Assembly: GCF_003946095.1 (NCBI RefSeq)
Contig: NZ_RHOD01000011.1
Span: 1 to 64,000 of the forward strand
DNA: 64,000 nucleotides
DNA from: Levilactobacillus lindianensis
GTDB lineage: Bacteria > Bacillota > Bacilli > Lactobacillales > Lactobacillaceae
Direction: 5' to 3'
The notes below the pieces were generated by a model. The model was given only the letters and a program-made list of their open reading frames with translations. It did not search any database and had not been told where the DNA came from. The position numbers and the translations under genes are program-made. This document shows positions 11,887 through 55,820 of this stretch, piece after piece; positions within the stretch are counted from its first letter, which is position 1; every line of letters begins with the position of its first letter.

Positions 11887-12001
11887 GGATGTGCACCTCC
11901 TTATATATTTAGACTTAGACTCGCCGAAATCAAGTGCTCCGCAAGGGAAAACTTAATAACTTGTTCCGAGCGGTTGCAGCTGTGGAAGTCCACAAATACA
12001 A
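11887..12001 (-). promoter_or_regulatory. Probable L21 leader
   Basis: The transcribed region between the predicted start site (about 12002) and rplU folds into small stems, including GTGGACTTCCAC at about 11984-11995 and CTTGCGGAGCACTTG-type pairing at about 11929-11943. Position, length (about 115 bases) and stem arrangement fit the Firmicute L21 leader, thought to mediate autoregulation. The assignment is by position and fold, not by covariance search. Confidence 0.55.
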
Positions 12002-24775: not shown

Positions 24776-24940
24776 AACAGTTCTGCTCCTTATTGTACAG
24801 CTACTATTTTACCAAACTTCACCGCGTGCCACTATCCCGCTACCGAAATTTAATGTTTCTATGCTATTCTAGAGACCATAATCAAAAATGTACAGGATCA
24901 CGTGCAACTTTTATAATTTCTAAAGATTGAGGTGGCTTTT

Positions 24941-27571
24941 TTGCAAGATCGAAAACAGCGTCAACGGCTTTCACCACGCCAATTAACTTTAATTGGGGCT
25001 TTCCTAACGCCTCTAATTCTAATGACGGCCTACTTTATTTATCGGAAGATGGCGCCCTTTGGGTCGAGTAGCCTCCTGACTGTCGACCTGGGACAACAGT
25101 ACATCGATTTCTTTGCTTACATGCGCCGAGCCCTACTCCACGATCCCAGCAGCATCTTCTACTCGTTTGCTAACGGACTGGGAGGCGAAATGCTGGGAAC
25201 TTGGGCTTACTACCTCTTGAGCCCCCTCAATTGGCTGTTACTCTTCTTCCCTGGGTCCTCACTGACCAGTGGTGTCTTTATCATCACCGTCCTCAAGTAT
25301 GGCCTGGCCGGACTGACCTTTGGCTGGCTATTATTAAAGACGACTAAGCAACGTGGCCTGTTCGTCATCACCTTTGCCACGGCTTATGCCCTGATGGGCT
25401 GGTCCGTTGCCAACCAGTTAAATGTTATGTGGCTCGATGCCGCTTACCTACTCCCCCTGGTTTTCTATGGACTTTACCAGCTCATGCACACCGGTAAATG
25501 GCGGCCTTACGTGCTTTGGTTGGCAGTTACTTTAATCGTGAACTACTACATGGCCTACATGGTCTGTCTCTTCATGATCCTGAGCTTTGTCTTCCTGGCC
25601 GTCGACCGCTATACCAACTGGCGACACCTCGCCCAACAGATGGGCCAATTTGCCGTAACCTCGATCACGGCTGGCCTTCTCTCGGCGGTGGTGCTCCTGC
25701 CAACCTGGTGGTCGCTCTCTCAGAGCAAGGCCCAGTACACCGTGACGTCTTTTAAATGGAAGTTTGAATTCTTCCCACCAAAAATGGTGGCCAAGTTTTT
25801 CCTCGGCGCCTTTAACTTTGATCAGATGCCATCCGGTACGGCCAACCTCTTCATCGGTGCCATTGCCCTAATTGGCGCGCTCTTCTACTTTGGCGATCGG
25901 CGGGTTCACCTGCGGACACGGATCACAGCGGGACTCATTACGATCTTTTTAGCCTTATCATTGTGCGTTCAGCCACTCGATCTCCTGTGGCACGCCGGCC
26001 AGTTCCCAGTCTGGTACCCGTACCGCTTCTCCTTTGTCGTGAGCTTCTGGCTCATCTGGTTGGCTGCTCAGACGCTGACCATCGACTTTCAACCAAGTGC
26101 TCTGGCAATTGCGTTGGTAACGCTGATTATTGTCGCCGGTAGTGCCTACGTCGCCATCTCCCTCAAACAATTTAAGTTTCTTCAATTTAATCAAGTTCTC
26201 TTGGGTCTGCTCTTCGTCATTCTCGCCCTCGCGTTAACGACCTTGCCCGTCAAACATCACTGGATTTACCCGATCACCTTCTTCGTCATCGGGGTAACCG
26301 AGGTGACAGCCAACGCCTTCATCTCCTTAAACAATATTAGTTACGTTTCTCAGGACGAGTACGGCAACTACACGGATGAGCTCCAACGTTTAGTAAACGG
26401 CGTCCAGAAGACCGATAACGGCTTCTATCGCATGGGCAAGACCTTTGTGCGAACTAAGGGCGATGCCTTCCAAACCGGTTTCAATGGTGGCGGCGTCTTC
26501 TCCTCCGTTCTACCCAAAGCGGTTCCCGCCTTCTATGGCAACACCGGGAATCCCGATGGCGACGGTTTCGTCGCCTATAGTAACGGGACGCTAGTGACCG
26601 ACTCTCTGTTAAACATGAAGTACTACTTCCAGAATAAGACGCTTTCAGGGGCCTTAAGTGGTGCAAGTATGCTCCCCGCCAGCAGTAATAAGGCCGACCT
26701 GGCCGATTATCGCGCCCTGAGTCAGGATCACTGGACCACCACCTATCAGAACCCCTACGCTTTACCACTGGGTTATGCGGCCAATTCCCAAATTTTGTCG
26801 TTGAAGGACACGACCGCCGATCCCGCACAGTATCAAGCTAACTGGTTAGCTGCGTTGACGGGTCGTCAAGCAGACCGTCACCTGTACCAAGCAGAAAACT
26901 TCGATCAGGTCACCTTTGATAACATTAACCAGCAAACCAAGATTACCGGTGCCGTGTTGCAAAAGAAGAATCTCCTGAAACCTGGTAGCATCACCCTCAC
27001 GATCAAGCCGAAAACCAATGATGCCATCTATATGACATTTGGATCGACCGTTAATCCGGACAATGCAACCTTCGTCTTGAATGGTCAGCCCTTGAATCAG
27101 TACAAGACCTATCGTCATACCATCCTAGTCAGTGTGGCCGATCATGCCAAAGGCAAGACCACCAAGCTCACTGTCCAGCTGAAGAAAGGATCGTTGTGGC
27201 TGGAAAACTTCACGCTTTATCGGCTGGATACCGCACAGTTCAAGTCTGCGGTAACTCAACTCAAGACCAGTCCTTGGCGTCTAACCAAGCACAGTAGCCG
27301 GTCATTTAGCGGTAACATCACGACCAAGAAAGACCACCAAGTCCTCAATACGTCGATCCCATACTCTGCCGGTTGGCGAGCAACCGTTAATGGCCATCGC
27401 GTCAAGACCTACAAGACTGTTGGCATGTTCACCGCGCTCAAGCTACCTCGTGGTACTAGTCACGTCACGTTATCCTACTGGCCACCACTGTTTAACGCGG
27501 GCCTCCTGCTCAGCGGATTAACAGCATTGAGCCTCATTGGTCTCAGCTGGTTCCAGCGACGACGTCATTAA
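24941..27571 (+). CDS. YfhO family membrane protein
   Basis: A large membrane protein (about 876 residues) of the YfhO family with roughly 12 or more predicted helices in the first 480 residues (for example TLIGAFLTPLILMTAYFIYR) and a further helix near the C-terminus (about 855-870). A large extracellular region lies between them. YfhO family proteins act in glycosylation of lipoteichoic or wall teichoic acid in Bacillus and Listeria, which I infer here. The start is TTG 24941 with AGGTGG 6 bases upstream; a GTG 9 bases earlier overlaps that site. It is divergent from the PBP gene and monocistronic. Confidence 0.92.
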   Translation: MQDRKQRQRLSPRQLTLIGAFLTPLILMTAYFIYRKMAPFGSSSLLTVDLGQQYIDFFAYMRRALLHDPSSIFYSFANGLGGEMLGTWAYYLLSPLNWLLLFFPGSSLTSGVFIITVLKYGLAGLTFGWLLLKTTKQRGLFVITFATAYALMGWSVANQLNVMWLDAAYLLPLVFYGLYQLMHTGKWRPYVLWLAVTLIVNYYMAYMVCLFMILSFVFLAVDRYTNWRHLAQQMGQFAVTSITAGLLSAVVLLPTWWSLSQSKAQYTVTSFKWKFEFFPPKMVAKFFLGAFNFDQMPSGTANLFIGAIALIGALFYFGDRRVHLRTRITAGLITIFLALSLCVQPLDLLWHAGQFPVWYPYRFSFVVSFWLIWLAAQTLTIDFQPSALAIALVTLIIVAGSAYVAISLKQFKFLQFNQVLLGLLFVILALALTTLPVKHHWIYPITFFVIGVTEVTANAFISLNNISYVSQDEYGNYTDELQRLVNGVQKTDNGFYRMGKTFVRTKGDAFQTGFNGGGVFSSVLPKAVPAFYGNTGNPDGDGFVAYSNGTLVTDSLLNMKYYFQNKTLSGALSGASMLPASSNKADLADYRALSQDHWTTTYQNPYALPLGYAANSQILSLKDTTADPAQYQANWLAALTGRQADRHLYQAENFDQVTFDNINQQTKITGAVLQKKNLLKPGSITLTIKPKTNDAIYMTFGSTVNPDNATFVLNGQPLNQYKTYRHTILVSVADHAKGKTTKLTVQLKKGSLWLENFTLYRLDTAQFKSAVTQLKTSPWRLTKHSSRSFSGNITTKKDHQVLNTSIPYSAGWRATVNGHRVKTYKTVGMFTALKLPRGTSHVTLSYWPPLFNAGLLLSGLTALSLIGLSWFQRRRH

Positions 27572-34504: not shown

Positions 34505-34790
34505 CTTTTTCCACAAAAAAGGCTCCGTCCCCATAACTAGGGACGAAGCTTCGCGGTACCACCCTGATTCAGTTGGTACACAAGGATACCAACCACACTC
34601 AGAAGTGATAACGGTCACTCACCGGTCAATCATTCATCACGTCGCCGTGACTCCCGATTACAACTCAAGAACTGAATTCACCCAAGTAATTTGAAGTTTG
34701 CTTCCAATCACGGCAAACTCTTCCTGACAAATTGCACCGGCTACTGCTTTTCTATCATCGTCTTTAAATTATTACATCTCATAGCCTAGC
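34505..34790 (-). promoter_or_regulatory. T-box leader of pheST (tRNA-Phe)
   Basis: The minus strand contains the conserved AGGGTGGTACCGCG T-box sequence (about 34552-34566) and a terminator stem (GTCCC with GGGAC around ATAACTA, followed by TTTTTT at 34515-34520). Upstream stem I has a GAATTC specifier candidate (about 34673-34678) where TTC is a Phe codon. Uncharged tRNA-Phe is expected to favour antitermination and raise pheST expression. Confidence 0.88.
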
Positions 34791-53396: not shown

Positions 53397-55340
53397 CTAG
53401 TTTTCTTCACGACTGTATGAAGCAATGTCACTCAGAATTTCCTTGACGAAGGCGTCACTACTCATGGAGTTACTGTCGTCTTCCCCGTACTTCCGGACAG
53501 AGACAGTGCCATTAGCCATTTCGTCTTCACCAACGACCAACGTGTATGGAATCTTGTGCGTTTGGGCGTCCCGAATCAGGTAGCCCATCTTTTCACCACG
53601 CTTGTCGACGTTAACCCGAACATCAGCAGCCTTTAATTCAGCAGCTAACTTGTCAGCGTAAGCCCCATGCTTTTCTTCGGAAACAGGAATGATGGTAACT
53701 TGTTTAGGTGCCAACCAAGTTGGGAAAGCACCCTTGTAGATTTCAGTCAGGTAAGCGGTGAACCGTTCCATCGTTGAAACCAAGCCACGGTGAATCATAA
53801 CTGGACGGTGTTCTTCACCATCGGCACCGACATAGTGTAAGTCGAAGCGTTCTGGCAACATGAAGTCCAATTGGATAGTTGAGAGCGTTTCTTCGTTCCC
53901 AAGGGCCGTCTTGGTTTGGACGTCCAACTTAGGACCGTAGAAGGCTGCTTCCCCTTCGGCTTCAACGTAAGGCAAGCCAAGGTCATCCATGGCACCCTTC
54001 AACATCTTCTGGGCGTTGTTCCACATTTCATCGTCATCAAAGTACTTTTCAGTGTTCTTAGGATCACGGTAGCTTAACCGGAACGTGTAGTCCTTGATAT
54101 CAAAGTCTTTGTAAACTTTAACCATCAAGTCCAGGATGCTCTTGAATTCGTCTTGGATTTGCTCTGGAGCAACGAACGTGTGACCATCGTTCAAGGTCAT
54201 TTCACGAACCCGTTGCAAACCACTCAGGGCACCGGACTTTTCGTAACGGTGCATCATCCCTAATTCGGCGATCCGTAATGGCAATTCACGGTAAGAACGG
54301 ATGTGGTGGTTGTAGATTTGAATATGGCTAGGACAGTTCATTGGCCGTAATTCAAGTTGTTCGCCATCACCCATGTCCATTGGTGGGAACATGTCTTCAC
54401 GGTAGTGTGCCCAGTGACCGGATTGCTTGTACAGATCCAGGTTAGCTAAGACTGGCGTGTAAACGTGTTGGTAACCGTTGGCAACTTCCTTGTCGATGAT
54501 GTAACGTTCGATCGTACGACGGATGGTAGCGCCATTTGGCATCCAGTATGGCAAGCCGGCACCAACCTTAGGATCAACGAAGAACAAGTCCAGTTGGTTC
54601 CCGATAACCCGGTGGTCACGTTCGCGAGCTTCTTGGCGCTTAGCTAAATCAGCGTCTAAGTCAGCTTGCTTGTAGAAGGCCGTCCCGTAGATCCGTTGGA
54701 GCATTGGATTTGAGGACTTGCCTTGCCAGTAAGCACCAGCAACGGAGAGTAACTTGAACTTCTTCACGTCACCCGTGTTAGCTAATTGGGCCCCGTCACT
54801 TAAGATTTCGTGGTCGCCAATCTTCAAGAAGTTAACTTGGTCGCCATCAACGGCTTTGATCAAGTCAGTCGTGTAAGGATCGTCCTTGGCCTTAGCCAAA
54901 GCGTCATCCTTGCTAACGGCGATGCGTTCGATAGTAGCCTTGTCGGCAATCAGCTTTTCAACGATTACGGCAATGGCGTCTAATTCATCAACACTGACTT
55001 GTTGGTCATCCTTGTCGGTATCCACGTAGAAGCCATCTTCGTCGGCACTAACTTCACCCAAACGAATGGCTGGGAATTCCTTCTTCAAGGCCATCCGAAC
55101 TAAGGCGGCAGTCGTGTTCCGCAGAACAGTCAAGCCATCTTCGTCACCCTTCGTCACGATTTCGATACTGCCATCGTGTGCGATTGGGGTCAAATTGTCG
55201 ATCAATTCGCCATCCAACTTAGCGGCAACTGCCTTTTTCCCTAAGCTAATGGAAATCGACTTTGCAACGTCTTCTGGCGTGGTGCCGGCTGGAAATTCTT
55301 TAACGTTGCCATCTGGAAACTTCAATGAAATATCTGCCAT
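53397..55340 (-). CDS. thrS: Threonyl-tRNA synthetase with degenerate editing site
   Basis: Class II synthetase of 647 residues: N-terminal TGS domain (1-62), the N2 editing domain (about 63-225), catalytic core (about 240-535) with [15 protein letters not shown], motif 2 [17 protein letters not shown] and the active-site zinc His in [13 protein letters not shown], then the anticodon domain. The editing domain normally carries HxxxH and CxxxH; here the four positions read N75, A79, S181 and Q185 (RNTTAA and ILSDGAQ), so hydrolysis of Ser-tRNA-Thr in cis is not expected. The fold around them ([18 protein letters not shown]) is retained. ATG 55340 follows a GGGAG site; a T-box leader precedes. 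Confidence 0.96.
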
Positions 55341-55377: not shown

Positions 55378-55612
55378 CGAAAAAATCCCCAGTGCCAAAG
55401 AAGGCACTGGGGACGTCATTAACGTGGTTCCACCCGATATTTTTCACGAGACTGGTCCCGTGAACTCTAATCGTCGCTAACGGAACGGACCGGTCGAAAA
55501 TTTCCTTTCGACAGCTAAGAAAGCGGTAATGTTGGCGGGCGCTAAGTCGGCTTCCAATCTAGTCCGGCTCTTCCTGTAAACGACTCCGCCACCACCATGT
55601 CTTTCATCATAG
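55378..55612 (-). promoter_or_regulatory. T-box leader of thrS (tRNA-Thr)
   Basis: The minus strand contains the T-box TGGAACCACG (about 55423-55433) followed by a perfect terminator stem CCCCAGTGCC/GGCACTGGGG (55387-55413) and TTTTTT. The ATTACC candidate specifier (about 55525-55530) has ACC, a Thr codon. A TATGAT box lies at its start near 55606-55611. Antitermination by uncharged tRNA-Thr is expected. Confidence 0.9.
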
Positions 55613-55784
55613 CTCTTGTGGTTTCAAAGACTATTAAACACTTGCGGCCAAATATTGTCAAGGGATGGCTGCGAAAAAATTCGAATCAACGATTAGTTTG
55701 ATAATAACCGTCGCCTCCGGGGCGGTGGCAATGGGCTGGAACGCCGAGGGCGGACGGCCAAAGCCACAGAACGGTCTTTAGCCT

Positions 55785-55820
55785 TGTCCTTGAGCCGCTC
55801 AGAATTGCGTCTCAAGGACA
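55785..55820. repeat. Perfect 10-bp inverted repeat
   Basis: TGTCCTTGAG (55785-55794) and CTCAAGGACA (55811-55820) form a perfect stem with a 16-base loop. Confidence 0.9.

Follow-up and report, generated by a model that had tools for sequence, protein, structure and literature searches.

Loss of the editing ligands of threonyl-tRNA synthetase in Levilactobacillus lindianensis and in most Lactobacillaceae genera examined

Editing-competent threonyl-tRNA synthetases (ThrRSs) carry the motifs HxxxH and CxxxH in their N2 domain. The thrS gene of Levilactobacillus lindianensis encodes an enzyme with neither, and the locus thus raises the question of whether the proofreading of Ser-tRNA(Thr) has been replaced, made dispensable, or given up. 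The gene lies at 53397..55340 on the minus strand of the DNA analyzed here (positions 1 to 64,000 of contig NZ_RHOD01000011.1; this whole stretch of 64,000 nucleotides is referred to as the window). It starts with ATG, encodes 647 amino acids, and is the sole full ThrRS match in the genome. The product is an ordinary full-length bacterial ThrRS, scoring 651 bits against NCBIfam thrS TIGR00418 (cut-off, 384), with a TGS (N1) domain (residues 1 to 64; 55149..55340; Pfam TGS at residues 8 to 63), an N2 (SAD) editing domain (residues 65 to 225; 54666..55148; Pfam tRNA_SAD at 169 to 218, 32.8 bits), a class II aminoacylation core (residues 240 to 540; 53721..54623; Pfam tRNA-synt_2b at 326 to 535), and an anticodon-binding domain (residues 541 to 640; 53421..53720; Pfam HGTP_anticodon at 547 to 636), all on the minus strand. 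Upstream are dnaB-like and dnaI genes; infC and the L20 gene lie downstream. Ahead of thrS is a candidate T-box leader (55406..55619, minus strand; Rfam, 61.0 bits, E value of 1e-12, below the gathering score of 93), and an inverted repeat of 14 bp with an 8-base spacer (55785 to 55820), possibly a terminator, separates dnaI from this leader. Elsewhere in the window, a second T-box leader (34536 to 34767, minus strand) precedes the pheS-pheT genes (34429 to 30965), a ribosomal protein L21 leader (11907 to 11985, minus strand) scores above its Rfam gathering score, and an 879-aa protein (24932 to 27571, plus strand) matches streptococcal PgfM glycosyltransferases at scores far under their cut-offs.

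To map residues, we aligned the window ThrRS to the ThrRSs of Staphylococcus aureus (1nyq) and Escherichia coli (1qf6). The E. coli editing ligands H73, H77, C182, and H186 (H-H-C-H) correspond to N75 (55116..55118), A79 (55104..55106), S181 (54798..54800), and Q185 (54786..54788; all on the minus strand), and the state of the window enzyme is thus N-A-S-Q. The first-pass annotation had placed the loss of all four ligands at 54775 to 55130 and had described the aminoacylation core as intact; both alignments bear out the loss and its position, and the core is indeed unaltered. The zinc ligands C336, H387, and H517 (E. coli C334, H385, and H511) are identical in all 189 aligned ThrRSs, as are the core residues D385, R365, Y468, and Q490. 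The N-A-S-Q state was found in this genome, in 29 other genomes of the genus (34 were found, and the ThrRSs of 29 were read), and in 16 named Levilactobacillus records, sets that partly overlap; the nearest named records, also from Levilactobacillus, have ThrRSs 97 to 98% identical to that of the window. The presence of N-A-S-Q in every congener read, together with the orderly locus, argues against chance or sequencing error. That the loss is an artefact of misassembly, of a pseudogene, or of misalignment is so improbable as to be negligible, since the frame is intact, the core is conserved, and the same state recurs across many assemblies.

In a study of E. coli ThrRS (PMC4041444), the C182A and C182S changes each lower the kcat of editing more than 500-fold, H73A lowers it 7,000-fold, and H186A lowers it 70-fold. 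With all four ligands gone and single changes this costly in E. coli, editing in cis has very probably been lost from the window enzyme, whose S181 is the same change as C182S. By the same analogy, the earlier prediction that mischarged serine is not cleared in cis is very probably correct.

A reading of the loss as peculiar to this lactobacillus is not supported. We sampled named Lactobacillaceae records, congeners, and at least one genome from each of 39 other genera, reading the ThrRSs of one to five genomes per drawn genus. Of 151 family genomes, all but one (G119, 65% complete) gave a ThrRS match. Among 143 distinct Lactobacillaceae proteins, 124 are eroded at the editing site (119 keep none of the four ligands, and 5 keep one), 14 have the state H-H-D-L, and 5 have H-H-C-H. 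Counted by genus, 32 of 40 are eroded, 7 have the H-H-D-L change instead, and 1 keeps H-H-C-H in all five of the ThrRSs read from it. Judging from genome sizes and tree position, the H-H-D-L and H-H-C-H genera may be the former Leuconostocaceae, and the H-H-C-H genus may be Periweissella. Outside the family, 23 genomes of the order were considered and 20 fetched (without G045, G052, and G054); one ThrRS was cut by a contig end, and all 19 readable ThrRSs, from eight other families, are H-H-C-H. The ligand positions of the eroded proteins show 46 different four-letter states, a diversity that fits a site released from catalytic constraint.

A survey of the class with the PF07973 SAD profile (E value, 1e-12) gave at least two matches in 243 of 247 genomes outside the family and one match in the other four; both Lactobacillaceae members drawn gave one match. 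Two matches are what intact AlaRS and ThrRS should give; the survey is a proxy, since it consists of match counts tallied by eye rather than residues read, and two matches may also be AlaRS plus AlaX. Some family members depart from the usual architecture. In genera g20 and g23, the match to the window ThrRS starts at residue 45 to 55 in 11 of 11 listed places, and the same holds for rows L159, L161, and L101 and for Paucilactobacillus vaccinostercus, so the TGS domain seems to have been lost or replaced there. One genome of g20 (G098) has two eroded thrS genes (C1:215196-217004 and C1:1927723-1929507; L160 and L161), the first of which gives a match that runs across a TAG codon. A truncated ThrRS in genome G055 is unlikely, because the match stops at a contig end and an N2-type piece lies at the other end of that contig.

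The first-pass annotation had proposed an alignment with other Lactobacillaceae ThrRSs as a means of dating the loss. We built a tree from ThrRS residues 241 to 640, leaving out the editing domain, with SH-aLRT values as the measure of support and no bootstrap. The 81 Lactobacillaceae rows group together (SH-aLRT, 99). Within them, an inner branch separates the 62 eroded rows (SH-aLRT, 88; not starred) from the 14 H-H-D-L and 5 H-H-C-H rows (SH-aLRT, 93; not starred). Horizontal regain of the ligands by the H-H-C-H genus is unlikely, as its five proteins fall inside the Lactobacillaceae clade; from this position it looks like a genus that has kept the ligands since early on rather than one that imported them recently. 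On this tree H-H-D-L requires two changes, and a single origin was not rejected (AU test, P = 0.109). The states HQSQ and QQSQ, found in Furfurilactobacillus, Dellaglioa, and Lactiplantibacillus, share with the NASQ of the window a Ser in place of the Cys and a Gln in place of the His that follows it, which hints, at the level of these residues, at a shared first step.

If the site no longer edits, the N2 domain should carry the marks of relaxed constraint, and it does. In pairs at similar catalytic divergence (distance, 0.20 to 0.35), the median ratio of N2 distance to catalytic distance is 1.39 for intact relatives in the order (16 pairs), 1.46 for H-H-D-L enzymes (24 pairs), and 2.89 for eroded enzymes (58 pairs), so that the eroded N2 domain diverges about twice as fast as that of intact enzymes. 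Column conservation was scored over 39 eroded, 14 H-H-D-L, 5 H-H-C-H family, and 19 order rows. Of the N2 columns, 58 are invariant in the 24 intact enzymes, and their mean retention is 0.86 in H-H-D-L enzymes and 0.58 in eroded ones; for the 160 catalytic columns that are invariant in the intact enzymes, the corresponding means are 0.96 and 0.97. Within Levilactobacillus, the median dN/dS of ThrRS differs by domain (TGS, 0.115; N2, 0.108; core, 0.018; anticodon domain, 0.039). Taken together, the distance ratios, column retention, and dN/dS values indicate that N2 is relaxed yet still under selection in the eroded group; in the H-H-D-L group it is nearly normally constrained. An AlphaFold2 model of residues 1 to 240 of the window ThrRS has a mean pLDDT of 95.4 and matches 1nyq_A (Foldseek TMq, 0.89) and the ThrRS editing domain 1tje (TMt, 0.82); a model of the first 244 residues of an H-H-D-L ThrRS (mean pLDDT, 94.7) matches 1tje with a TMt of 0.89. 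The input alignments (60 and 43 rows) mix intact and altered relatives and may pull the models toward a common fold, so the models make the N2 fold plausible but do not prove it. The predicted picture for the eroded domain is of a fold kept and a chemistry gone.

The retained fold and the dN/dS of 0.108 could also mean that the eroded site still edits with other residues. This we consider very improbable: columns E167, R206, Y106, and K157 of N2 have been lost in eroded enzymes along with the ligands, the ligand positions show 46 different states, and the C182S change alone is costly in E. coli, as cited above (PMC4041444). A further match of the two N1-N2 models is to a protein from the large subunit of the mammalian mitochondrial ribosome (TMq, 0.68 to 0.79). 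We presume this protein to be mL39, and it is perhaps an older case of the N1-N2 fold retained without editing.

The seven sister genera with H-H-D-L present a different change, one of remodeling. In window numbering, the pocket is described by residues 172, 179, 181, and 185: all 14 proteins read (rows L158, L165, L166, L174, L176, L186, L196, L205 to L210, and L213) have D for C181, L for H185, and A for Y172, and 12 of the 14 have Glu for D179, with milder changes at columns such as 78, 88, 90, 182, 203, and 213. Both HxxxH histidines, K157, Y105, Y106, and R206 are kept in all 14. These bacteria often lack catalase and make peroxide. A Cys-to-Asp change coupled with loss of the partner His to Leu might be what a peroxide-proof site looks like, judging from these residues. 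The thiol site may have been left by two roads, with the lactobacilli abandoning editing and the H-H-D-L genera rebuilding the pocket as a peroxide-proof editing site, in which the carboxylate of the new Asp would either activate the tRNA 2'-OH or join two His as a ligand of a metal site. In E. coli ThrRS, C182 is oxidized by peroxide after activation by H73 and H186, and editing is thereby switched off (PMC4041444). Against this reading, relatives in the order retain the Cys, and we hold the two-road history to be a tentative and somewhat doubtful idea. If it is true, ThrRS editing has a second chemistry, and there is a natural link between exposure to oxidants and the fate of proofreading.

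Could another protein clear Ser-tRNA(Thr) in the eroded lineage? The first-pass annotation had named a second thrS gene and a free editing domain as things to look for, and we searched the genome (2.33 Mb, 67 contigs, 99.8% complete) for both. Neither was found. A search with the ThrRS protein gave no second ThrRS, the other matches being weak (E values of 4.7e-7 and above) and lying in C13 (ProRS) and C34. PF07973 gave two matches, ThrRS itself and an AlaRS-sized frame reading as AlaRS, and hence no AlaX and no free ThrRS editing domain. (Separately, a genome from another family of the order with intact ThrRS editing, G044, encodes a 385-aa AlaX-like protein at L157:279-1436.) PF04073 matched ProRS and one stand-alone protein of 170 aa (G000 C5), which clears the YbaK_EbsC cut-off narrowly (158.7 versus 153.25 bits); as this sole stand-alone PF04073 protein fits YbaK_EbsC, the search yielded no ProXp-ST-like protein. 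Within the families searched (PF07973, PF04073, and PF02580), no known Ser-tRNA(Thr) deacylase was thus seen. The single DTD (PF02580) was rejected as a distinguishing factor, since all 58 genomes searched have one (57 of them a single match, and G032 a DTD in two pieces).

The first-pass annotation had offered a second factor acting in trans as one of two alternatives. As regards a second ThrRS and the known Ser-tRNA(Thr) editing families, none of which was recognized in the genome, that suggestion found no support; what is left of it is a YbaK-type protein with widened specificity or a deacylase outside the known families. The 170-aa protein would be the candidate, and YbaK relatives, ProXp-ST1 and ProXp-ST2, act on Ser- and Thr-tRNAs (PMC11295145). 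However, the genome has no AlaX, free ThrRS editing domain, or second stand-alone PF04073 protein, and PF07973 gave at most two matches in 150 of 151 family genomes. Moreover, 21 of the 23 genomes from other families of the order also have stand-alone PF04073 frames (counted by presence, irrespective of type), so that neither such frames nor DTD marks the lineage with the loss. We regard such trans editing as rather improbable. Tolerance of the errors, the other alternative in the first-pass annotation, is the likelier of the two, given that neither a second ThrRS nor a member of a known Ser-tRNA(Thr) editing family was recognized in the genome. A general decay of editing was not seen: HxxxH and CxxxH are present in the AlaRS of this genome, and the putative LeuRS and ValRS (assigned by motif) retain HDERD and HDPND, all of which we take to be editing motifs. 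For IleRS, one motif search recovered only part of the editing region and another none of it; the PheRS beta chain encoded in the window can be aligned over its length to chain 2rhs_B of known structure.

Editing at N2 would also be dispensable if fidelity were secured at the synthetic site, through a pocket that rejects serine better or through pretransfer editing of seryl-adenylate. Residue 494 (E. coli S488 by our own count), which we take to lie near the catalytic pocket, is Met in 108 of 124 eroded ThrRSs and Leu in 38 of 38 others; this change could bring better selectivity instead of tolerance. Residue 338, two positions past the zinc Cys, is Ser in all 143 family proteins, in place of the His of all 19 order relatives, but Ser338 does not track the loss, as it is also present in the H-H-C-H family members. 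Routes of this kind are listed for other synthetases with degenerate editing domains (PMC4787780). On the other side, the catalytic columns are as well kept in eroded enzymes as reported above (0.97 on average), and for the cyanobacterial T2 enzyme the same paper reports no effective compensation in the active site (PMC4787780). We therefore judge fidelity at the synthetic site to be an unlikely, if reasonable, explanation.

Instead, we favor the reading that editing was given up without a known replacement, leaving Ser-tRNA(Thr) uncleared and Thr-to-Ser errors tolerated, and we put its probability at about 0.62. The lineage of the lactobacilli would have dropped posttransfer ThrRS editing, probably once and early, with no known factor taking over. 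Threonine would still be chosen at the zinc site, an occasional Ser-tRNA(Thr) would escape hydrolysis in cis, and Ser would appear at Thr codons more often than in editing-competent bacteria, a mild substitution that the cells would tolerate. Freed from catalysis, N2 would drift at the pocket and keep its fold, probably for tRNA docking or for the structure of the dimer; the purifying selection on N2 (median dN/dS of 0.108) also leaves room for an unrecognized function. In E. coli, the ThrRS C182A mutant is reported in a review to show little growth defect, and Thr-to-Ser errors to be well tolerated (PMC10057733). Tolerance in E. coli has limits, however: oxidized ThrRS is harmful in cells without heat-shock proteases, according to the same review (PMC10057733), and another review lists growth defects resulting from defective ThrRS editing (PMC11415595). 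Also against the favored reading, a study of a duplicated cyanobacterial ThrRS argues that selection acts against a misacylating ThrRS in the housekeeping role (PMC4787780).

Should this reading hold, Lactobacillaceae offer tractable, harmless species for a direct measurement of how far Thr-to-Ser errors are tolerated. Moreover, the intact, H-H-D-L, and eroded states within one family form a natural series for asking why proofreading goes and whether its loss is driven by the editing cysteine becoming oxidized. The Lactobacillaceae live in food and in the gut, freely or in loose association with a host. According to a review, free-living bacteria keep robust synthetase editing and host-restricted ones lose it (PMC10057733); the Lactobacillaceae, with genomes of 1.2 to 3.5 Mb, would be a clear exception to this rule. 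The loss in most of the genera examined suggests that they tolerate more translation errors than is held to be usual for such bacteria.

Compared with known systems, the window enzyme shares with the E. coli and S. aureus ThrRSs the order TGS, N2, class II core, and anticodon domain and the same zinc site, and it differs from them in the replacement of the four N2 ligands and in the drifting columns of the pocket. Loss of the N2 ligands in the only ThrRS, as found here, is the mark of naturally editing-deficient ThrRSs such as those of Mycoplasma, whose editing site is likewise degenerate (Li et al. 2011; PMC7373986, PMC10057733, and PMC4787780). Mycoplasmas are genome-reduced parasites with degenerate LeuRS and PheRS editing as well (PMC7373986, PMC10057733, and PMC4787780); in contrast, the Lactobacillaceae genomes drawn reach the sizes given above, and the AlaRS and putative LeuRS and ValRS motifs are kept in L. 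lindianensis. Many mycoplasma ThrRSs also have an insertion of about 20 residues by the CxxxH motif (PMC4787780). The window enzyme, unlike these and the Anabaena T2 enzyme, has no insertion near CxxxH, and its alignment to the S. aureus N2 domain has single-residue gaps only. Anabaena T2 resembles it as a case of impaired N2 editing in a free-living bacterium, but T2 retains the ligand motifs and is compensated by a second ThrRS, T1 (PMC4787780), whereas the genome examined here has one ThrRS. Archaeal ThrRSs likewise lack editing in cis, and there a free-standing ThrRS-ed protein is present (PMC7373986 and PMC11295145), a counterpart of which was not found in the L. lindianensis genome with PF07973, PF04073, and PF02580. 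Among the matches listed, titles and beginnings of abstracts in the open-licence literature gave no report of ThrRS editing loss in Lactobacillaceae (the survey of Melnikov et al. 2018 lies outside this scope), and no report of an H-H-D-L pocket was found among the open-licence matches listed. Within the literature searched, then, natural loss of ThrRS editing was already known from mycoplasmas, and what is new is its spread through most of the Lactobacillaceae genera read and the H-H-D-L pocket of the sister genera.
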